A stretch of 32,628 bases of DNA from Ruminiclostridium sp. (GTDB lineage Bacteria; Bacillota; Clostridia; Oscillospirales; Ruminococcaceae): assembly GCA_017941355.1 (NCBI GenBank), contig JAGAWN010000079.1, positions 1-32,628 on the forward strand, in the 5' to 3' direction. Both the position numbers and the translations under genes were made by a program. The notes beneath the pieces are model-generated. The model worked only from the letters and a program-made list of their open reading frames with translations. It searched no databases and was not told the origin of the DNA. Position 1 is the stretch's first letter. The number at the start of each line of letters is the position of its first letter. Shown here one piece after another: positions 21,135 through 31,461 of the stretch.

Positions 21135-21234
21135 CAGGTTACAGGCTTCACAAGTTTCTGTAACACGATCACTATAAGAATAATAGCATATTTATCGCAA
21201 ACTGTCAATATCATTCGTTGAGTAATCGCATCAA

Positions 21235-21350
21235 TTAACGCACGCGTGCGTTAAGATTTATATTAAACACATCACAAACGCATCAAAAGTATTGACTTAA
21301 CGCACGAATGATGATATAATAATATAAAATCTAACGCACGCGTGCGTTAG
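21235..21350 (+). promoter_or_regulatory. Promoter with two perfect 20-bp palindromes
   Basis: TTGACT (21292-21297), 17 bases, TATAAT (21315-21320). Palindromes TTAACGCACGCGTGCGTTAA (21235-21254) and CTAACGCACGCGTGCGTTAG (21331-21350) flank it, and a half site TTAACGCACG (21297-21306) lies between the boxes. Occupation of the sites would shut the promoter, with looping possible. The binding protein may be the downstream gene product itself. Confidence 0.85.
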
Positions 21351-21375
21351 ATGATGTGTTAAATGAGGTGTTAAA

Positions 21376-23019
21376 ATGAATATCGGATTTAAAGAAGACC
21401 TTACAAACGAGTTCAAAAGCGATAAAAAGAAGCTTCCAGACTCAGATATAATTGATGCGGTCGTAGCCTTTGCTAACACCAACGGAGGTGACCTATATCT
21501 CGGCGTGGAGGACGACGGCGAGATCACGGGACTGCACAAGGAGCATACGGACGCAGTACAGCTTGCGGCGTTTATTGCAAACAAGACAGTGCCTCCTGTA
21601 ACGGTTGATGTCGAAAAACGTGATGATAACACATATATAAAAATCAGCGTTCCGAAGTGCAGGAGCATTGTTGCTTCGTCATCCGGAAAAATACTCCGCC
21701 GCAGGATAAAAGCCGACGGGACACCGGAGAACGTCCCGCTGTATCCGCATGAGATACATTCAAGGCTGTCCGATCTCAGGCTGCTGGACTTTTCTGCTCA
21801 GTGCGTTCCCGATTCGGAATACAGTGATCTTGACGATACCGAACGTGAACGACTCCGTAATGTTATTCGTTCATACAACGGCGAAAAAGCATTGCTGGAG
21901 CTTGACAACGAGGAACTTGACAAGGCGCTCAGACTTGTTGACGATATAGACGGAAAGTTGAAACCGACATACACCGGAATGCTGCTCATAGGGCGTCCCG
22001 ACAGACTCAGACTTCGCATACCGACTGCCGAAGCGTCGTTTCAGGTCATGAACGGCACCAATGTTGTTATGAATGAATCAGTCAATCTTCCTATCCTGGC
22101 GGCATTTGAAAAGATCAGTACCTTTATGGACGCGAGAAACTCCGAAGAAGAGATAGAAATGGGCTTTTTCAGGATCTCCGTATCAGATTACAACAAACGC
22201 GCATTCAGAGAAGCTCTGGTAAACGCATTCTGCCACAGGGATTACACAATGCTCGGCAGCGTTCGTGTGCTGCTGGACGACAACGGCTTGACGATAAGCA
22301 ATCCCGGCGGTTTTATCGAGGGTGTTACACTGGAAAACCTTCTTACAGTCGAACCATACGGACGCAACCTCGCGCTCGCAGACGCGCTGAAAAGAATAGG
22401 ACTTGCAGAGCGCACCGGACGCGGCATTGACCGTATCTTTGAAGGTTCCCTTTTATATGGTAAACCTCTGCCCGATTATTCGGAATCCAACGATGTCATG
22501 GTAAGACTGTTTATTCCAAAGAGCCTGCCCGATCGCGATTTTACAAGGCTTATCTCCGAAGAACAGAACAGGCTTGGTCATGAGCTTCCCATAAATTCGC
22601 TTCTTGTCATGAACGAGCTGAAACGGAACCGCCGTGCAAGCATTGCTGAACTTTCGGATTCTACACATATCAGCGAATCCAAACTCAGGATCACTGTGGA
22701 AAATCTTGTCGAATCCGGTTTAATCGACGCTATCGGCAGCGGACGCAGCAGATACTATACCCTTAGTGCCGATGTTTACAAGCAATCCGACAACCTGACG
22801 GGATATGTCCGCCAGACAGGTATAGACAAGATACGGTATCCGGAGATGATATTGAAATTTGCTGAGACAAATAACGGTATTATTACAAGAAAGGACGCTG
22901 CCGACCTGCTTAGGTTGAATGTCCAGCAGGCTTACAGGATATTGAAGAAAATGGCAGATGAGGGTAAGCTGATACCGGAGGGAACAGGTAAGGGCGCTTG
23001 TTACCGTATAAAACAGTAA
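21376..23019 (+). CDS. AlbA_2/Schlafen-type ATP-binding protein with winged HTH
   Basis: A 547-residue protein of the RecG-like AlbA_2 family: N-terminal AlbA_2 domain (EFKSDKKKLPD, then VVAFANTNGGDLYLGVEDDGEITG, residues about 12-50), a central GHKL-like ATP-binding region (REALVNAFCHRDY, about 275; ISNPGGFIEGVT, about 312; GRGIDRIF, about 350), and C-terminal winged helices (about 410 onward). Despite frequent annotation as RecG it has no helicase motifs. Such proteins are predicted nucleic-acid-binding regulators and are common in defence islands. GAGG lies 7 bases before its ATG. The elaborate operator upstream suggests autoregulation. Actual function here is unknown. Confidence 0.8.
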   Translation: MNIGFKEDLTNEFKSDKKKLPDSDIIDAVVAFANTNGGDLYLGVEDDGEITGLHKEHTDAVQLAAFIANKTVPPVTVDVEKRDDNTYIKISVPKCRSIVASSSGKILRRRIKADGTPENVPLYPHEIHSRLSDLRLLDFSAQCVPDSEYSDLDDTERERLRNVIRSYNGEKALLELDNEELDKALRLVDDIDGKLKPTYTGMLLIGRPDRLRLRIPTAEASFQVMNGTNVVMNESVNLPILAAFEKISTFMDARNSEEEIEMGFFRISVSDYNKRAFREALVNAFCHRDYTMLGSVRVLLDDNGLTISNPGGFIEGVTLENLLTVEPYGRNLALADALKRIGLAERTGRGIDRIFEGSLLYGKPLPDYSESNDVMVRLFIPKSLPDRDFTRLISEEQNRLGHELPINSLLVMNELKRNRRASIAELSDSTHISESKLRITVENLVESGLIDAIGSGRSRYYTLSADVYKQSDNLTGYVRQTGIDKIRYPEMILKFAETNNGIITRKDAADLLRLNVQQAYRILKKMADEGKLIPEGTGKGACYRIKQ

Positions 23020-23086
23020 TTGCTTAGGAATTGTTTCAATAGGTGCCTGTGATATATACCATTGAATTCGATTTATAAAACAACAC

Positions 23087-23118
23087 AAAACCGCAGTTTT
23101 ATTGAAAACTGCGGTTTT
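23087..23118. terminator. Bidirectional terminator
   Basis: AAAACCGCAGTTTT and AAAACTGCGGTTTT form a perfect 14-bp stem with a 4-base loop between two convergent genes. Confidence 0.9.
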
Positions 23119-23123
23119 TACTA

Positions 23124-23432
23124 TTAGTTCTTATATGATTTCAAGAATTGCAAGAACAATTCCGCCTTCTCCGGCGGAAGCTCACGGTAACTCTTTACAA
23201 CTTCCTGCTCATTAGGCGAGAGGTAGAAAGCATCGCCGTTTTCGTTAAAGAACTCAGCCAGCGATATATCAAAAGGCGCGAGCATTCTGTAAAGAGTCTC
23301 TACTGTTGGTATCTTCGCACCTCTTTCGATATCGCGTATGTGGGTAGTGGATATACCGGATTCCTTTGACACCCGATAGGCGCTGATGTTTTTCTGTTTG
23401 CGAAGCTCCTGAAATCTTTTTCCTAAATCCAT
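23124..23432 (-). CDS. XRE-family regulator
   Basis: 102 residues: Cro/C1 HTH (LGKRFQELRKQKNISAYRVSKESGISTTHIRDIERGAKIPTVETLYRMLAPFDISLAEFF) followed by a short tail ending FLQFLKSYKN. The ATG at 23432 lies 10 bases after GGAG; an upstream GTG would be too close to that site. It diverges from the SLOG-type gene and probably binds the CAGCTATAAC/GTTATAGCTG pair between them, controlling both. Confidence 0.85.
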   Translation of the reverse strand: MDLGKRFQELRKQKNISAYRVSKESGISTTHIRDIERGAKIPTVETLYRMLAPFDISLAEFFNENGDAFYLSPNEQEVVKSYRELPPEKAELFLQFLKSYKN

Positions 23433-23468
23433 AATATCCACACTCCTTTTACAGTATTATAACCTATT

Positions 23469-23528
23469 CAGCTATAACTAAATAAGACGTCTATAATAGT
23501 TGATAATAATAAGTTATAGCTGTATAAT
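23469..23528. promoter_or_regulatory. Divergent operator-promoter region
   Basis: Rightward promoter TTGATA (23500-23505), 17 bases, TATAAT (23523-23528). A perfect 10-bp inverted repeat, CAGCTATAAC (23469-23478) and GTTATAGCTG (23513-23522), has its right half in this spacer and its left half just upstream of the leftward TATAAT near 23460. One XRE dimer species could control both directions. Confidence 0.75.
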
Positions 23529-23561
23529 TGTAGAGCAATAATACTATAATTGGAGATAATT

Positions 23562-24026
23562 ATGAAAAATTGCTGTTTTACCGGTCATCGGATAATAAAA
23601 ATAACCCCTGAACTTGTTCAGAGGTTAAGAGATACTATTATTAATTTAATAAAGCAGGGCGTTACCGACTTCTATGACGGCGGTGCAATTGGGTTTGATA
23701 CGATTGCCGCGGAAACGGTCATAGGTCTTAAAGACGAATATCCCGATATTAAGCTGCACATGCTCTTGCCGTGTCCGTCAGACGAGCAGATAAAGGGGTG
23801 GAATAAGTCTCAGATCGCGCGATATGAGAGGATACTGAACGCCGCTGATAGAGTGACTATGGTTTCCAAGCATTATACCCGCGACTGCATGAAGCAGCGC
23901 AACGAGCGTTTGGTCGAGCTCGCGAATTGCTGTATATGTTACTGTAATAATTCTCGGAGCGGGACAGGGCAGACGGTGCGTATGGCGCTAGATAAAGGAA
24001 TAGATGTTATAAACTTATCCGGGTAG
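23562..24026 (+). CDS. SLOG/DUF1273-family protein
   Basis: 154 residues beginning MKNCCFTGHRIIKITPEL, the signature of the DUF1273 (YpsA-like) branch of the SLOG superfamily, a Rossmann-like fold thought to bind nucleotide-derived ligands. DFYDGGAIGFDTIAAETV and CNNSRSGTGQTVRMALDKGIDVINL supply the glycine-rich loops. ATG at 23562 follows GGAG by 6 bases. SLOG proteins often act as ligand sensors in conflict systems. Its 3' end lies just left of the invertible segment whose promoter now fires leftward, so it may be subject to antisense transcription. Confidence 0.85.
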   Translation: MKNCCFTGHRIIKITPELVQRLRDTIINLIKQGVTDFYDGGAIGFDTIAAETVIGLKDEYPDIKLHMLLPCPSDEQIKGWNKSQIARYERILNAADRVTMVSKHYTRDCMKQRNERLVELANCCICYCNNSRSGTGQTVRMALDKGIDVINLSG

Positions 24027-24029
24027 TTT

Positions 24030-24049
24030 TCGCAAAACAGATCATTTTA
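24030..24049. repeat. Left inverted repeat of invertible segment
   Basis: TCGCAAAACAGATCATTTTA, exact reverse complement of 25283-25302. The two repeats enclose 1,233 bases with a complete tyrosine recombinase gene. Confidence 0.9.
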
Positions 24050-24085
24050 AGAGCACGACAAAATATGTACAATAATACAGTTTAT

Positions 24086-24114
24086 ATTATATCACAAATT
24101 GTAGGAATTGTCAA
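24086..24114 (-). promoter_or_regulatory. Invertible promoter, now facing left
   Basis: On the minus strand TTGACA (24109-24114), 17 bases, TATAAT (24086-24091): a perfect consensus promoter inside the inverted-repeat segment, about 40 bases from the left repeat and transcribing out across it, away from the recombinase and the R-M operon. After inversion it would lie near 25218-25246 and read rightward into the methylase gene. Confidence 0.85.
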
Positions 24115-24129
24115 ATAATGGAGGATAAA

Positions 24130-25203
24130 ATGTTGTCAAATGTATATCTGCGTAAGGACGGTCGTTATGAGGCACGAATCGCATTAGGAAAGGATAATAC
24201 TGGTAAAAGGCAGTATCGGTCTGTTTACGGAAGAACGGCAGAGGAAACGGAGCAAAAGCTATTGGCAATAAGCACTCGTGAGTATGCATTAACGGAAATT
24301 ACCGTCAAAGAGATCACGCTTGAATATCTCACGGCATTGAAACCACAGATAAAGGAATCCACGCTTGCCAACTATCGTATGAAAGCCGAAAAGCACATCA
24401 TTCCGGCGTTTGGTAGGGAGAAATGCTACAGTATCACCACTAACGCGGTCACAATGTTTATCAACAAGAAGATACAGCAAGGGTTATCGGCACGATATGT
24501 TGCCGATATTGTTATTTTATTGAAAGGCGTATTTCGTTATGCAGCCCGGGTGCATAATATCAGGTATCCACTTGATGGCGTAAAAGCTCCAAAATGTAAT
24601 AAGCATGATGTTGCAGTCTTGTCAAAGAGCGAGCAGACGCGGCTGATCAATATTGCAACAAATGATAATGATCTTCGCTCTCTCGGTGTCGTGACAGCTA
24701 TGTACACCGGTATGCGTATCGGGGAGCTTTGCGCTTTGAAATGGAGTGATGTTGACCTCGATAACGGAATTATCCGTGTTCATCGTACTTTACAGCGTAT
24801 CCAGACTGCTGACGGCGACAAAAAGACAAAGATAGTGATAACAGAGCCCAAGAGTACAAGTTCTGTCCGTGACATACCAATCCCAGATTGTCTTATGCAG
24901 CTTTTGGTGCAACGACGTAAGGATAGCGATATATATGTTCTTTCCGGTAGCCGTAAACCCGTTGAGTGCAGAGCTATGCAATACTATTTCGCTCAAATAC
25001 TGAAAAACGCAAATTTGCCGTCAGTTCACTTTCACAGCCTTCGTCATGCCTTTGCCACAAATTGTATCGCGCTCGGCTTCGATATAAAGACATTATCGGA
25101 GATATTGGGTCACTCGCGCGTGGAAATAACGCTCAACCGCTATGTTCATTCATCGCTTGAACGCAAGCGGGCATGTATGTCGCTGCTCACATGGGTGGCG
25201 TAG
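24130..25203 (+). CDS. Tyrosine recombinase (probable DNA invertase)
   Basis: 357 residues with the full tyrosine recombinase active site: Arg196 (TGMRIGE), His302/Arg305 (HSLRHAFA), His328 (LGHSR), Tyr338 (LNRYVHS), plus an N-terminal AP2-like arm-binding domain and a core-binding domain from about 55. The ATG at 24130 follows GGAGG by 5 bases; the ATG at 24118 lies before that site. It is the only gene between the 20-bp inverted repeats at 24030 and 25283, which it probably recombines, flipping itself and the outward promoter. No good rightward promoter is visible ahead of it. A phage-type integrase role is the alternative, but no direct-repeat att sites flank it. Confidence 0.88.
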   Translation: MLSNVYLRKDGRYEARIALGKDNTGKRQYRSVYGRTAEETEQKLLAISTREYALTEITVKEITLEYLTALKPQIKESTLANYRMKAEKHIIPAFGREKCYSITTNAVTMFINKKIQQGLSARYVADIVILLKGVFRYAARVHNIRYPLDGVKAPKCNKHDVAVLSKSEQTRLINIATNDNDLRSLGVVTAMYTGMRIGELCALKWSDVDLDNGIIRVHRTLQRIQTADGDKKTKIVITEPKSTSSVRDIPIPDCLMQLLVQRRKDSDIYVLSGSRKPVECRAMQYYFAQILKNANLPSVHFHSLRHAFATNCIALGFDIKTLSEILGHSRVEITLNRYVHSSLERKRACMSLLTWVA

Positions 25204-25282
25204 TTCGTCAGATGTTCGTATATTTATGGTCATAGAAATATCTGCAAATACGGCATAGTGCGGTCTACTGCATAATTTATCG

Positions 25283-25302
25283 TAAAATGATCTGTTTTGC
25301 GA
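25283..25302. repeat. Right inverted repeat of invertible segment
   Basis: TAAAATGATCTGTTTTGCGA, exact reverse complement of 24030-24049. It lies 97 bases before the methylase start codon. Confidence 0.9.
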
Positions 25303-25368
25303 TAAAACATCTCACATCTCAAGCCTGCAACATATTATACCCTTTAATCGCAGAATTATCAATGAGAG

Positions 25369-25389
25369 CCTGACAGTTCAAGTCAGGAG
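25369..25389 (+). promoter_or_regulatory. Hairpin over the methylase ribosome binding site
   Basis: CCTGAC (25369-25374) pairs with GTCAGG (25382-25387), whose end is part of the AGGAG (25385-25389) serving the TTG start at 25399. The stem could limit translation. No clear fixed promoter is visible between the right inverted repeat and this site. Confidence 0.5.
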
Positions 25390-25398
25390 TGCTGTCGA

Positions 25399-27282
25399 TT
25401 GCTGATAAACATACAAGACGACATTATCCGCCTGCATGCGGCGGGACTGCTCACGCGGCTGCTTGCGGACAAGACCACAGGCAAAAACATCATGTGGGCA
25501 ACGGACGCTTACGCCGAACACGGCACAAAGTATGAGCGCAACGAGCAGATAATGCCAGAACTTATAACCGGATCGAACACCGGCATTATCAAGACCCGCG
25601 CCCGCAAAGTCTTTGAACAGCAGACAGAGCGTACCCGCCGCCGCGCCGAAGTATTCACGCCTTTGTGGATATGTAAGAATATGACCGAACACTATTATAC
25701 AGAGTGTGCGTCGGGGCAGGACACGGACAAACTGATTAACTCGCGGCAGCTGGAGATCACCTGCGGCGAAGCGCCGTTTCTTGTATCGCGTTACGATACG
25801 ACGACCGGAGAGCCGATACCGATAGCGGAGCGCATAGGGCTGCTTGACAGGAAATTGCAGCTTGCTGGAAAGATCGCGGAGGATGAAGCCGACTGGCTTA
25901 ACCTTGCACGCAGGGCGGTTGAAAGTACATACGGGTATGAGTTTCAAGGCGACAACCTGTTGATAGCGCGGGTGAACCTTATCGAAACATTTTCGGAATA
26001 TATGCAGGATTGTTGGCATCGCGAGCCGACACCCGCTAAGATGCGTCCGATAATAAATATCGTCACATGGAACGTGTGGCAAATGGACGGGCTTAACGGG
26101 CGAATACCGTATAAGACCGCTGACGAAGACAATGTTCAGTTGTCGTTCTTTGAAGAAGAGGCCGCCGCACCGGAACAGCCGCCGTGTAAGATATTCGACT
26201 GGCGGGCAAGGCGACCGCTTGAATACAACGTTATTGGGAAAGGAAACAAGACTATGAAATTTGATTTTGTGATGGGAAATCCGCCGTATCAGGAAGAAAA
26301 GAAATCAGACAGTCCGAGAGATTTACCTATTTATGATAAGTTCATGAGTGCAACTTATAAAATATCAGATAAAGTTTTGCTTATTACCCCCGCTAGATTT
26401 TTGTTTAATGCAGGGTTCACTTCTAAAGAGTGGAATAACACAATGTTGAGCGATGAACACTTAAAAGTCGTATTTTTCGAACCTAATAGTTCGGCTGTTT
26501 TTGCGAACACACAAATTCCAGGCGGTGTTGCTATCACATATCGAGATAGGAATAAAGTTTTTGGGAAAATTGGTGAGTTTATTCCTTATGCTGAACTAGT
26601 CAGCATCATGGCAAAGTGCAAATCTGATAAAATAATGTCTGATTTGATATCGTCAAGAGATTTATTTCATTATTCTGATTGTTTTTTTGAAAAGTATCCG
26701 GAGAAAAAAGCAATTAATAATTATAATAATGTTGTAAATTCAAATGCTTTTGATAAATTTGAGGATGTTTTTACTGAAAAACCAACAAGAAAGGATGATA
26801 TATGTTTCCTAGGTAGATATCATAGTAAAAGAGAAAATCGTTACATTTTAAAAGAATACATTGACTATAATCCATATATTTCTCAATGTAAGGTGGTTTT
26901 TGCACAGACAAATGGTGGCGCAGGAACTATAACTGATGAAAAAGCGGCTGCTGTTATGGGCGAACCAACCGTTTACTATGAAATGTCTGGATTTACAGAT
27001 TCTTTTATTTGCGTTGGCTTAGGAGATAATAAGAGCGCTGCGGATAATTGTGCAAAATATATACGAACAAAGTTTATGAGAGCATTATTGGCGACTTTAA
27101 AAAGAACTGGAAGTATTACAAAGGATAAATGGGCGAATATTCCACAGCAAGATTTTACAGATAAATCCGACATAGACTGGTCTAAATCTATTCCTGATAT
27201 AGATAAACAGCTTTATAAAAAGTACGGCTTGACCGATGACGAGATAACCTTTATCGAGACCCATGTAAAGGAGATGTCATAA
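25399..27282 (+). CDS. Eco57I-type N6-adenine DNA methylase
   Basis: 627 residues. EVFTPLWICKNM (84-95) is motif X, ITCGEAPFLVSRYD (120-133) stands where the SAM-binding motif is expected, and MGNPPYQ (292-298) is the catalytic NPPY of N6-adenine methylases. The remainder resembles the target-recognition half of Eco57I/TaqI-type enzymes. Start is a TTG at 25399, 9 bases after AGGAG. From about base 26250, just before NPPY, the DNA turns clearly more AT-rich, suggesting that the recognition half was exchanged; a second ATG with AAAGGA upstream sits at that junction (about 26254). The stop overlaps the next start (TAATG). It should methylate the sites the downstream protein attacks. Confidence 0.87.
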   Translation: MLINIQDDIIRLHAAGLLTRLLADKTTGKNIMWATDAYAEHGTKYERNEQIMPELITGSNTGIIKTRARKVFEQQTERTRRRAEVFTPLWICKNMTEHYYTECASGQDTDKLINSRQLEITCGEAPFLVSRYDTTTGEPIPIAERIGLLDRKLQLAGKIAEDEADWLNLARRAVESTYGYEFQGDNLLIARVNLIETFSEYMQDCWHREPTPAKMRPIINIVTWNVWQMDGLNGRIPYKTADEDNVQLSFFEEEAAAPEQPPCKIFDWRARRPLEYNVIGKGNKTMKFDFVMGNPPYQEEKKSDSPRDLPIYDKFMSATYKISDKVLLITPARFLFNAGFTSKEWNNTMLSDEHLKVVFFEPNSSAVFANTQIPGGVAITYRDRNKVFGKIGEFIPYAELVSIMAKCKSDKIMSDLISSRDLFHYSDCFFEKYPEKKAINNYNNVVNSNAFDKFEDVFTEKPTRKDDICFLGRYHSKRENRYILKEYIDYNPYISQCKVVFAQTNGGAGTITDEKAAAVMGEPTVYYEMSGFTDSFICVGLGDNKSAADNCAKYIRTKFMRALLATLKRTGSITKDKWANIPQQDFTDKSDIDWSKSIPDIDKQLYKKYGLTDDEITFIETHVKEMS

Positions 27283-30200
27283 TGCAGGCGAATATACCAA
27301 AAATAAACACCTTTGATAAGGTCGTACCGATGATATATGCGTATAACACGCCCGGTGTCACATATCACGACGGCTGGACAAAGATAGGATATACCGAAAA
27401 GCAATCCGTAGAAGACCGCATACGCCAGCAAACACATACCGCCGGAATACAGTGGGAGCTTGCGTGGCAGGACAATGCTATGTACAAGGACGGCTCCGGC
27501 GAGTATTTCACCGATCATGATTTCCACAGTTACCTTGAAATAAAACAGCAGATCGAGCGCGAGCCGAAAACCGAATGGTTCAAGATAAACGGTATGGATT
27601 CGCTGAAGCTGTTCCAGACCTTTGCGCGCGGTGCGGCAGAATCAAAGTCTGCCGGCAGCGAATACATACTCCGCGATGAACAGAGCCGTGCTGTAAAGAT
27701 GACAAGTGAATATTTTGCGGGCGGCGGTACGGAGTTCCTGTGGAACGCAAAGCCGCGTTTCGGAAAGACGCTTGCGGCTTATGATCTTGTGCGGACTATG
27801 GGATTGCAGAAAGTTCTGATTGTCACTAACCGCCCGAGCATTGCTAATTCTTGGGCAGATGACTTTATGAAGTTTATTGGTTGGCGCGGGGAACTTGCGT
27901 TTGTATCAGAAACCGACGCGCTGAAAGATCATGCCGGCGTTATGACAAGAAAAGAATACCTTGATGAGCGTATGTTCGGCAGCAAAGATAAGAAAAAGGG
28001 CATGATCGCGTTTGAGTCGCTGCAAGGTCTGAAAGGGTCTGTGTATTTCGGAGGCGAGTTCAAAAAGCTGCAATGGATAAAAGATAATGAGTTCGATCTG
28101 CTGATCGTTGACGAATCGCAAGAAGGTGTTGATACATTCCGTACAAGCCGCGCGTTCAAGAATATAAAGCGTAAGCATACTCTATATCTTTCCGGAACGC
28201 CGTTCAAGGCTCTTGCAAGTGAGCAGTTCCGTGAAGAGCAGATATTCAACTGGTCGTATGCGGATGAGCAGGCGGCAAAGGAAAACTGGAGCGGCGAGGA
28301 CTACAATCCGTATGAGCGTATGCCGCGGCTGAATATGTTTACATATCGGCTGTCGGATATGATCTACGATAAGATAAAGCGCGGTGTGGACATCTCCGAT
28401 GACGGCGAAACAAGCGATTATGCGTTCGACCTAAATGAGTTCTTTATTACTAACGAGAGCGGCAAGTTTGTTCACGAGGACGATGTGCGGAAGTTCCTGC
28501 ACTCTCTTACGACCTTTGAGAAATATCCGTTCTCTACGCCTGAGCTGCGCCGGGAACTGTCACATACCATGTGGATATTGAACCGTGTTGCGTCTGCGAA
28601 GGCGCTGGCGAAGCTGCTGAAAGATGATGAGTTCAGGGATATTTTCGGAGAATATGAGATCGTGCTTGCCGCCGGTGACGGTAAACTTGATGACGATGCC
28701 GCAGTTGACAGTGCGCTCGCCCGTGTCCGCAAGGCAATTGCCGAGCATGACAAGACGATAACGCTTACAGTCGGGCAGCTTACTGTCGGGATAACCGTTC
28801 CGGAGTGGAGCGGGGTGCTTATGCTCTGCAATATGCAAAGTCCGTCGTCGTATATGCAGGCGGCGTTCCGTCCGCAGAATCCTTGCACGTTTACACAAGG
28901 CGGACAGCGCTGGCGTAAGGAAAATGCGTATGTGTTCGACTTCGATCCCGCAAGAACGCTGATAATCTTTGACGAGTTCGCTAATAATCTGTCTCCTAAT
29001 ACCGCCTCCGGCAGGGGGACAAGCGAACAGCGTGAGGAGAATATCAAGCGGCTTCTGAACTTCTTTCCTGTTCTTGGCGAGGACGACGAGGGCAGAATGG
29101 TTCAGCTTGACGAAAAAGCCGTACTCTCGATACCGCGCCGCATAAAGTGTACGGAAGTGGTACGTCATGGCTTTATGAGCAATTTCCTGTTCCAGAATAT
29201 CGGTAATATATTCGGTGCTCCGAGCATTGTTAAGAATATTCTCGAAAAGTTCACGCCCGCACAGGAAGACCCTAAGCGAAATAAGCGTGACGGAATCGAC
29301 CGTATAGATGATGTTAATGTCGATGATGAAGGAAATGTTCAGATACCGAACGAGATCGTTATCGGTAAGACGCAGGATCTTTTCGGAGATAAGATATATG
29401 AAGTCATGAGCGAAAAGGTCGATAATGCGGTGAGCCGTGCTGCGGACGAAATTTCATCGGCTGCGGCTTTCAGTTCTCCGACCACGCTGAATACCGGAAA
29501 TGAGATCATCAAGGAGCAGACCAAGAGCGTTGCGGAAACGCTGAAAGAGGCTGTTGCCGCTCCGATTATTGAAAAGGTCGCGGAGGATTACGGTTTCAAG
29601 AAGTCTGAAAAGGAACGCATAACCAAGCAGGTTGAGAACGAGATAGAACGGACGGTCACGGAGCTGCGTGATGACTGCATACAGCAGACAAATATCGCAA
29701 AAGCTGAGTTTGAGCGCAAGCAGTCCGAAGCAGATACCGCCGAAGAACGCAAGCAAGCCGAACAGGAATATCAGGCACAGATCAACAGTGCGTTACAGGC
29801 TCTAAATGAGGGTATCCAAAAGGAGACCCAGCGCATTGTTGCCGAAAAGCCGCAGGAGCTTGTCGCACAGGCTGAAAAAAAGAAGGAAGAAAGCGAAAAG
29901 AAGGGTATCGAGGACGATATCAGAGCGCATCTGCGCGGATTTGCCCGGACGATACCGAGCTTTATCATGGCTTACGGCACGGATGAGCTAGTGCTGGCGA
30001 ATTTTGACACGGCCGTTGATAAAGACGTGTTCTACGAGGTCACAGGGATCACACTTGACGAGTTCCGGTTTCTGCGTGACGGAGGCGACTATACCGATGA
30101 AGCTACCGGAGAAACACAGCACTTTGACGGGCATCTCTTTGACGAGGTGGTATTTAACGATTCCCTACGGGAGTTCATGAGAAAACGCACGGAGCTTGCA

Positions 30201-30656
30201 AATTATTTCGATGAGAGCCACGAGGAAGATATTTTCGACTACATACCGCCACAGAAAACAAATCAGATATTTACACCGCGGTGGGTAGTTCAGAAAATGG
30301 TCGATGAACTGGAGATAAACAATCCGGGTTGCTTTGATGATTCCGATAAAACTTTTGCGGATTTATATATGAAGTCCGGTCTGTACATTACCGAGATCGT
30401 TAAGCGCCTTTACCGCAGCGAGAAGATGAAAGAACTGTTTCCCGATGATAAAGACCGTATCCGGCATATCATAAACAAGCAGGTCTATGGTATAGCGCCG
30501 ACGCAGATCATATATCTGATAGCGACCAATTATATCTTGGGATTTGATGATACTTTGAAGACCGAGACTTCGCACTTCGCTATGTATGATACTGCGGAGG
30601 CGGCGAAGAATGGTACGCTGCAAGCGGTTGTAGATGAATTGTTTGAGGGTAAGTGA
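27282..30656 (+). CDS. GIY-YIG-like nuclease/DEAD helicase restriction protein
   Basis: 1,124 residues. N-terminus (17-85) fits a T5orf172/MUG113-type GIY-YIG nuclease: MIYAYNTPG, WTKIGYT, DRIRQQT and catalytic-type Glu in GSGEYF. Then an SF2 helicase: Walker A KPRFGKT (157-163), VDESQE (276-281), SGTPF (304-308), QAAFRPQNP in the motif VI position. Residues about 740-875 are a long Glu/Lys/Gln-rich coiled coil. The C-terminus (about 990-1110) has IFTPRWVVQKM and ADLYMKSGLYITEIVKRLY, like motifs X and I of N6-adenine methylases, but no NPPY follows. Likely the translocating restriction subunit working with the preceding methylase, to which it is coupled by a TAATG overlap. Confidence 0.85.
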   Translation: MQANIPKINTFDKVVPMIYAYNTPGVTYHDGWTKIGYTEKQSVEDRIRQQTHTAGIQWELAWQDNAMYKDGSGEYFTDHDFHSYLEIKQQIEREPKTEWFKINGMDSLKLFQTFARGAAESKSAGSEYILRDEQSRAVKMTSEYFAGGGTEFLWNAKPRFGKTLAAYDLVRTMGLQKVLIVTNRPSIANSWADDFMKFIGWRGELAFVSETDALKDHAGVMTRKEYLDERMFGSKDKKKGMIAFESLQGLKGSVYFGGEFKKLQWIKDNEFDLLIVDESQEGVDTFRTSRAFKNIKRKHTLYLSGTPFKALASEQFREEQIFNWSYADEQAAKENWSGEDYNPYERMPRLNMFTYRLSDMIYDKIKRGVDISDDGETSDYAFDLNEFFITNESGKFVHEDDVRKFLHSLTTFEKYPFSTPELRRELSHTMWILNRVASAKALAKLLKDDEFRDIFGEYEIVLAAGDGKLDDDAAVDSALARVRKAIAEHDKTITLTVGQLTVGITVPEWSGVLMLCNMQSPSSYMQAAFRPQNPCTFTQGGQRWRKENAYVFDFDPARTLIIFDEFANNLSPNTASGRGTSEQREENIKRLLNFFPVLGEDDEGRMVQLDEKAVLSIPRRIKCTEVVRHGFMSNFLFQNIGNIFGAPSIVKNILEKFTPAQEDPKRNKRDGIDRIDDVNVDDEGNVQIPNEIVIGKTQDLFGDKIYEVMSEKVDNAVSRAADEISSAAAFSSPTTLNTGNEIIKEQTKSVAETLKEAVAAPIIEKVAEDYGFKKSEKERITKQVENEIERTVTELRDDCIQQTNIAKAEFERKQSEADTAEERKQAEQEYQAQINSALQALNEGIQKETQRIVAEKPQELVAQAEKKKEESEKKGIEDDIRAHLRGFARTIPSFIMAYGTDELVLANFDTAVDKDVFYEVTGITLDEFRFLRDGGDYTDEATGETQHFDGHLFDEVVFNDSLREFMRKRTELANYFDESHEEDIFDYIPPQKTNQIFTPRWVVQKMVDELEINNPGCFDDSDKTFADLYMKSGLYITEIVKRLYRSEKMKELFPDDKDRIRHIINKQVYGIAPTQIIYLIATNYILGFDDTLKTETSHFAMYDTAEAAKNGTLQAVVDELFEGK

Positions 30657-30679: not shown

Positions 30680-30715
30680 AGCACCTGTAAGTTTTGATAC
30701 TTGCAGGTGCTTTTC
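30680..30715 (+). terminator. Terminator of the R-M operon
   Basis: AGCACCTGTAAG pairs with CTTGCAGGTGCT (one wobble) around an 8-base loop, followed by TTTT, 24 bases after the stop codon. Confidence 0.88.
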
Positions 30716-30850: not shown

Positions 30851-31461
30851 CCAATATAGTGAGGAGACTTTTTCATGTCCGGCAAAACCGACACCTGACT
30901 TACGGAAACTCGACCTCGTTATGTGCAGGATAGACGAATATGCAATAACAGAGCCATTTATTTTTAATTTACCCTTTAAAATCAGCGTAAATTTTTCCTT
31001 ATATATGAAAGGACTCGAAAGCTCCCAACAAGTTATTCGCAAAATGCACAACTCGCGAGCCCTGTTTTGTGCAAGCATACGAAAAATTGAGTGATTTTTT
31101 AAAAAGTCGAAAAAACAGCGAAAATATACCTTAACATTTCGTATAAAAAGTTCCCTTATTATGAGAGGACTAATTGCGGTTTAAAAAATGCACAATAGAA
31201 AGGGATAAATCCACGCCAAGTTATACAAATATAACGAACTTATCAAAAATGTTTCAGTTAGCCTTTGAAAACGACCACAAAAATCGGTATTTTTTATCCT
31301 TATATATGAGAGGACTTATTACATCATAAAATATTGCACAATCCAAGTTGCTAATTTTGGGTCAAACTATACAAATTTAACGAAATTCGCAAAAATGTTG
31401 CAGTTAGCGGTCTGCAACACCCGCTAAAATCGGCAAAAATTTTCCCTTATTATAGAGGGGC
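30851..31461 (+). repeat. Diverged tandem array of about 146-bp units with an 18-bp box
   Basis: An 18-bp box of the type CCTTATATATGAGAGGAC recurs at 30851 (diverged), 30997, 31153, 31298 and 31444, spaced 146, 156, 145 and 146 bases. The ends of each box are nearly self-complementary. Units starting at 31153 and 31298 also share GCACAAT, TATACAAAT-TAACGAA, and AAAATGTT-CAGTTAGC, and units end with AAAATCGG- or AAAATCAG-like sequence before the next box. The whole 30716-31450 stretch is AT-rich and has no gene; nature unknown. Confidence 0.65.

Follow-up and report, generated by a model that had tools for sequence, protein, structure and literature searches.

A putative self-contained promoter-inversion cassette with its own tyrosine recombinase, next to a restriction-modification operon in Ruminiclostridium

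Promoter inversion is known from the Hin and fim switches, and from Clostridioides difficile and Bacteroides. In the Hin switch the promoter also lies inside the inverting segment, the recombinase being a serine enzyme and the sites being the hix sites. DNA inversion reportedly also acts on restriction-modification (R-M) genes in Mycoplasma pulmonis. In Salmonella the inverting Hin segment is 966 bp long and contains the recombinase, and a putative fimbrial switch of Providencia stuartii is described as an 844-bp invertible segment, near a fimbrial locus, that encloses a recombinase ORF (PMC5903667). RecV of C. difficile is a tyrosine recombinase that serves more than one switch and inverts upstream segments of 154-230 bp, which as described there have no recombinase inside (PMC5903667). 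One inverton group, number 139, has 33 members, 32 of them from Clostridia, and is linked to nearby tyrosine-type recombinases (invertase group 35) (PMC11892184). DNA inversion also acts on R-M genes at hsdS (PMC5903667, PMC3090145), and invertible promoters controlling methyltransferases have been suggested as a possible common mechanism in the Bacteroides fragilis group (PMC10333322).

The window analysed here is a stretch of 32,628 nucleotides, one whole contig (C247) of a 4.5-Mb, 300-contig Ruminiclostridium genome. It contains a cassette that, judged from its sequence, is very probably a self-contained phase-variation switch for an R-M operon, OFF as assembled. Like Hin, the cassette has its recombinase inside a putatively inverting segment of about 1 kb; unlike Hin, the enzyme is a tyrosine and not a serine recombinase, and comes from a multi-copy family with varied spacers. 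With the P. stuartii switch as described it shares the enclosed recombinase, the host group and target being different. With the RecV switches it shares the Clostridia, the tyrosine recombinase and, putatively, the upstream inversion, and it differs from them, as they are described, in having the recombinase inside the segment. The hsdS inversions in the accounts cited change specificity, unlike the promoter switch proposed here. Inverton group 139 and invertase group 35 may be the same family as our cassette, compared by description only. The literature searched yielded no account of the cassette family or of one of its cassettes ahead of a two-gene Eco57I-type R-M operon, which is no proof of absence. 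What is new here is the self-contained tyrosine-recombinase family and its R-M target; promoter inversion, the enclosed recombinase and inversion of a methylase promoter have precedents or had been suggested.

The cassette and the operon beside it

A preliminary description of this DNA reported that perfect 20-bp inverted repeats enclose a complete tyrosine recombinase gene, that a perfect promoter pointing outward to the left lies between the left repeat and the gene, and that inversion would bring this promoter to about 150 bases before a methylase gene. All three points hold. The repeats are at 24030-24049 and 25283-25302 of the window sequence (extended, 26 nt at 92%), and the segment from 24030 to 25302 is 1.27 kb long. 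Inside them is an intact ORF at 24118-25203 on the + strand. The ATG at 24130 is the likelier start of the recombinase (24130..25203), there being a GGAGG at 24120-24124, and the alignment of most relatives begins at that residue. The protein matches PF00589 (1.4e-28) and PF14659, and its profile matches the Int, XerA and XerD structures. R200, K245, H306, R309, H332 and Y342 are invariant in 18 recombinase sequences, and we take this R, K, H, R, H, Y series to be the catalytic set of tyrosine site-specific recombinases. By catalytic residues, PF00589 and structure-profile matches, the cassette enzyme is predicted to be such a recombinase.

The outward promoter, TTGACA-N17-TATAAT, occupies 24086..24114 on the - strand, matches the consensus at 12/12 positions with a TG before the -10, and points left, away from the R-M operon. 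Inverted repeats enclosing a promoter-bearing segment are the anatomy of an inverton. When the segment is inverted in silico, the promoter moves to 25218-25246 (+), with a leader of about 146 nt before the TTG at 25399. The window contains 12 promoter matches with at most one mismatch, four of them perfect (0.20 expected per window by shuffling), so consensus promoters are common there and that of the cassette is not unique.

The presumed target operon starts 96 bases beyond the right repeat with the gene for an Eco57I-type DNA methyltransferase (25399..27282, +; TTG start, AGGAG at 25385-25389). It matches the Eco57I family (PF07669, 2.4e-15), and the GNPPY motif is present in 8/8 family sequences; on its SAM-binding and NPPY motifs the protein is predicted to be the methylase of a Type II (IIG/ISP-like, split) R-M system. 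The start of the second gene (27282..30656, +) overlaps the methylase stop. Its product, the putative restriction subunit, has 1124 residues, with a T5orf172/GIY-YIG-like N terminus, a helicase (ResIII, 2.2e-9) and a methylase-like C terminus. T5orf172, which presumably belongs to the GIY-YIG clan, is matched in this protein at 6e-4 and 20.7 bits (cut-off 20), and in 8/8 N termini of the restriction family at E up to 1, the best being 1e-7. The gene had been described as GIY-YIG/helicase: the helicase stands, and the nuclease is better supported across the family, its match being weak for the window protein itself. The protein is therefore a candidate nuclease and helicase partner in which the nuclease part is modest. 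An intrinsic-terminator-like hairpin follows the operon at 30680..30711 (+). Further on, at 30970-31450, there are imperfect copies of CCTTATATATGAGAGGACT-like repeats, some of them about 145 nt apart.

The same two-gene pair occurs at seven loci outside the window, and methylase matches at 1e-20 are found in 12/394 genomes of the order, own genome included. Related R-M systems are found on plasmids, above all of lactic acid bacteria, and also as a single fused protein. PDB searches found no relative of the R-M proteins, and viral contigs gave no match to patterns from the methylase. In five of the seven relatives the upstream sequence exceeds 5 kb and contains no match to the cassette recombinase; in the other two, L270 (338 bases) and L272 (49 bases), it is too short to judge. 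In the 250 bases before the methylase, promoter-like sites score 11/12 in L271, 10/12 in L266, L267 and L270, 9/12 with a perfect -10 in L268 and 8/12 in L269, with 9/12 in the window, a comparison that is suggestive only.

The preliminary description saw no fixed promoter for the methylase. This is right insofar as no + strand match outside the cassette exceeds 9/12. There is one weak match of 9/12 (CTCACA-16-TATTAT, 25311-25338), the best on the + strand between 25303 and 25398, which could give leak expression of the methylase. A fixed promoter-like site, TTGATA-N17-TATAAT (25334..25362, -; 11/12), points into the cassette, and similar sites lie to the right of the cassettes in L055, L008, L061 and L062. 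Among the loci listed, 48 cassettes had a called ON/OFF state and 200-base flanks. In these, target-side outward promoters of at least 11/12 were found in 0/48 and of exactly 10/12 in 6/48 (shuffled, 0/96 and 13/96); this is the shuffled level, and shows only that none stands out. Inward promoters of at least 11/12 were found on the target side in 6/48 and on the back side in 3/48, so that reading of the recombinase from outside is not a family rule.

A family of cassettes and its core sites

The layout had been thought unusual. This view has to be given up, since the self-contained arrangement is the usual form of a Clostridia recombinase family, and it is the R-M target that stands out. The family set was pooled from a genome-contig scan (the best 80 of at least 564 confirmed stretches) and genus loci, giving 116 loci, of which 7 were duplicates and 109 distinct (window included); 9 lacked complete flanks, leaving 100. 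Among these loci, an enclosing inverted repeat scoring at least 14 is present in 84/100, window included, and absent in 16. The corresponding counts are 2/54 for other integrases and 26/1190 for mispaired flanks, and by these controls chance repeats were set aside. The integrase controls numbered 91, of which 37 had no flanks, and included some viral loci of 36-45% identity; both repeat-positive controls are 37-39% identical to the query and are perhaps family members. Of the repeat-bearing members among the loci listed, 80/84 have an outward promoter scoring at least 10/12 (perfect in 21), compared with 17/84 for inward promoters and 41/420 in shuffled sequence, and the position and direction of the outward promoter are kept in relatives. 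Segment lengths are 1187-1517 bases (85 cassettes among the loci listed, one with an incomplete flank). The family loci share ancestry, and these counts are not independent.

The genome of the window has eight family-profile matches at E up to 1e-60, including that of the window and one fragment at a contig end; the best full-length paralogs are 58-63% identical. At a loose 1e-3, relatives of the recombinase are found in 67/71 genus genomes and are mostly ordinary integrases; at 1e-60 they are found in 39/148 family genomes. The best 80 of the at least 564 stretches come from Ruminococcus, other Oscillospiraceae, Lachnospiraceae and others, and include cultured strains. Cultured hosts in the wider family include Ruminococcus albus 7, with a cassette on pRUMAL02, and R. 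flavefaciens FD-1 (L140). A related recombinase, 33% identical, is encoded on an Enterococcus raffinosus plasmid (L275, 4725-6264). It is enclosed by perfect 18-bp inverted repeats, with an HTH gene and a SecA2/SecY2 operon beyond them; the layout reaches the Bacilli. Three more E. raffinosus plasmid records cover 88% of this query and do not differ from it in orientation, and one more covers 13%. In the loci L069-L077, and in L067 with the direction reversed, the cassette is directly flanked by a second tyrosine recombinase of a different kind. This gene heads an operon, which in some of the loci contains polysaccharide genes; this is possibly a two-recombinase version of the cassette.

Many of the family repeats resemble the core sites of tyrosine recombinases. 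In the window, the left site (24029..24053) contains the left repeat and reads as a 9-bp arm, the 7-bp spacer CAGATCA and a 9-bp arm, with 6/9 arm positions complementary. The right site (25279..25303), in inverted orientation, contains the right repeat and has the same spacer, with 8/9 positions complementary. The arms of both are approximately TTCGCAAAA, and a frequent form in the family is TTCGCAAAA-7-TTTTGCGAA. Among the loci listed, 33/81 cassettes have at least 8/9 arm positions complementary around a spacer of 6-8 bases, as do 1.8% of shuffles, and 48/81 fall below this. This count omits four cassettes with repeats longer than 36 nt (L098, L101, L129 and L158), whose enclosing repeats of 53-135 nt are far longer than elsewhere and may be either real or assembly palindromes.

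Exchange by this class of enzyme needs matching spacers. Seven cassettes of the window's genome have six spacers between them: cagatca in the window, cacatca in L056, tagttca in both L055 and L008, ttaaata in L058, ccggata/tcggata in L057 (two copies, one base apart) and, with different arms, tacccaa in L060. In another genome (G063), identical repeats occur at several loci (L069, L071 and L072), which means that private spacers are frequent and not universal.

Orientation, proposed switching and other readings

Both orientations exist among members of the cassette family. Between L066 and L097 the cassettes can be aligned from repeat to repeat in plus-strand register, at 80%. The flanks are exchanged and lie on the minus strand: the right flank of one locus corresponds to the other's left flank at 74%, and its left flank to the other's right flank at 80%, the alignments ending in the repeats. 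Both flanks are likewise reversed between L068 and L097. L067 and L074 share the flank that carries the second recombinase at 93% identity but in opposite directions, and their cassettes, 85% identical, have the same direction. There are 42 opposite-orientation candidates, compared with 91 same-orientation pairs for the right flank and 54 for the left. One-flank cases such as L065/L099 are weaker. We limit the claim to L097 with L066/L068 and to L067 with L074, because weak pairs may be unrelated paralogs and because loci such as L101 have similar genes on both sides. The layout given in the preliminary description, an invertible promoter with the recombinase inside, OFF as assembled and with the R-M operon pointing away, is upheld: the architecture is shared by the 84 repeat-bearing members, and relatives are found in both orientations. 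When state was called from the direction of the first neighbours, a crude rule applied to related loci, the 85 cassettes among the loci listed comprised 43 OFF and 10 ON; in another 23 the genes on either side point away, and 9 are unclear.

We propose that the encoded tyrosine recombinase would recombine the two inverted core sites and flip the 1.27-kb segment. As assembled, the strong promoter would read left, antisense to a SLOG gene, leaving the R-M operon with the weak promoter-like match only (OFF). After inversion it would read right, through the leader, and transcribe both the methylase gene and that of the restriction-helicase protein (ON). In either state transcription from outside could reach the recombinase, coming from the SLOG side when OFF and from 25362-25334 when ON, and switching would thereby stay reversible. 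The expected outcome is bet-hedging, with some cells restricting and others permissive. A working switch would make restriction a coin-flip trait, most cells being open to DNA and free of the cost of restriction and a minority being armed, and any one clone would give a mixed signal in methylome or phage assays.

The left neighbour of the cassette is a YpsA-type SLOG gene (23562..24026, +), which ends 3 nt before the left repeat, is preceded by a promoter-like site TTGATA-N17-TATAAT (23500..23528, +; 11/12), and may share a transcript with the recombinase when the cassette is OFF. The gene recurs as back-side neighbour of several cassettes (L060, L061, L062 and L063, with a tail in L056), 3-27 nt from the repeat where measured. 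A terminator-like hairpin lies antisense within it (23602-23627, -), in the path of the predicted OFF-orientation transcript. This allows another reading, in which the cassette does invert but acts mainly through RNA made antisense to the SLOG gene, the R-M operon being constitutive from a weak promoter or incidental. The repeated SLOG neighbour, the recurrence of the hairpin in L061 and the methylase's own 9/12 match all fit such a role. We consider it unlikely, since the hairpin is missing from L063, the closest copy, the SLOG gene was noted beside the cassette at a handful of loci only, and, among the loci listed, the away-pointing neighbour is on the target side in 43/53 cassettes that have just one.

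Returning to the R-M switch, the window locus itself is seen in one orientation only, in one assembly. In L063, from a sister species, the sequence corresponding to 21174-24862 is 94.8% identical over 3.7 kb and in the same orientation. The match spans the left flank, the left junction (which is the same) and much of the recombinase, in which region the L063 contig breaks off. The right junction of the window was found in no other of the 71 genus genomes, and the inverted-junction pattern and the 20-bp repeat had no match in viral contigs. The restriction protein had no match in the L063 genome (0/3 genomes, without a positive control). The single orientation here and in L063, together with a left site that is only 6/9 symmetric, would suit a fossil switch, once invertible and now locked OFF. 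This is quite improbable given an intact recombinase with its catalytic residues and repeats that are perfect over 20 bp; moreover both R-M proteins are full length with the conserved motifs of their relatives intact, and an operon long locked off should decay.

Elsewhere the SLOG gene and cassette are followed by different genes: in L062 by one for a surface-type protein, and in L056, where homology to the window stops at the right repeat, by acyl-ligase genes. The R-M operon therefore looks like one cargo behind a reused switch. The same facts, and the many tyrosine recombinases that are integrases, could be read as a mobile element whose repeats are its ends, with an incidental promoter and no inversion, but this is very improbable, as homologous loci keep both flanks and are inverted relative to each other between the repeats, many repeats have core-site symmetry, and promoter position and direction are conserved; nor did an empty site come to light among the loci examined. 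A transposon was likewise set aside, homologous loci retaining both flanks and being inverted at the repeats.

Cargo of the wider family

It seems to us an evenly balanced proposal that the family is one of plug-in switches, each cassette combining its own tyrosine recombinase, an outward promoter and core sites with an often private spacer. Several could then flip in parallel with little cross-talk, and any operon could be placed behind one; here, with a complete R-M system as the cargo, one part of the population would restrict and the other be permissive. From the many recombinase-site pairs of the wider family one could learn how spacer identity separates tyrosine switches within one cell.

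Annotation of the targets was a sample, of 30 chosen proteins and of 70 scanned together (69 of these from a list of 134, and 6 scanned before). The 30 include flagellin, glycosyltransferases, UDP-galactopyranose mutase, leucine-rich-repeat and Ig-like proteins and a dockerin protein, as well as LytTR regulators, an AMP ligase with an acyltransferase, HerA-type and HA-domain helicases, FtsK and FHA proteins, and a few are without a Pfam match. Among the 70 there are 8 LytTR, 8 response-regulator domains, 7 GHKL kinases, 3 sugar transferases and 3 Wzz. The neighbours of the family thus include typical phase-variable functions. Some are similar to defence proteins in that they have helicase or kinase domains in common with them. 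In the stretches fetched for the other 108 family loci there was no relative of either R-M protein, making the window the only one of the 109 loci listed to have this R-M pair nearby. L141 has a GNPPY methylase motif in a frame of 1616 residues (about 3642), which lies about 4 kb from a family cassette and is not adjacent to it.

Within the window's own genome, the cassettes adjoin R-M, flagellin, AMP-ligase/acyltransferase, leucine-rich-repeat, LytTR/prepilin-peptidase and HerA loci. The window itself contains, between 1 and 23000, an integrase and a Rep protein, together with more defence-like genes, namely an N6 methylase, a UvrD helicase with a PDDEXK nuclease, an AAA ATPase with a subtilase, and a Schlafen-type AlbA protein.
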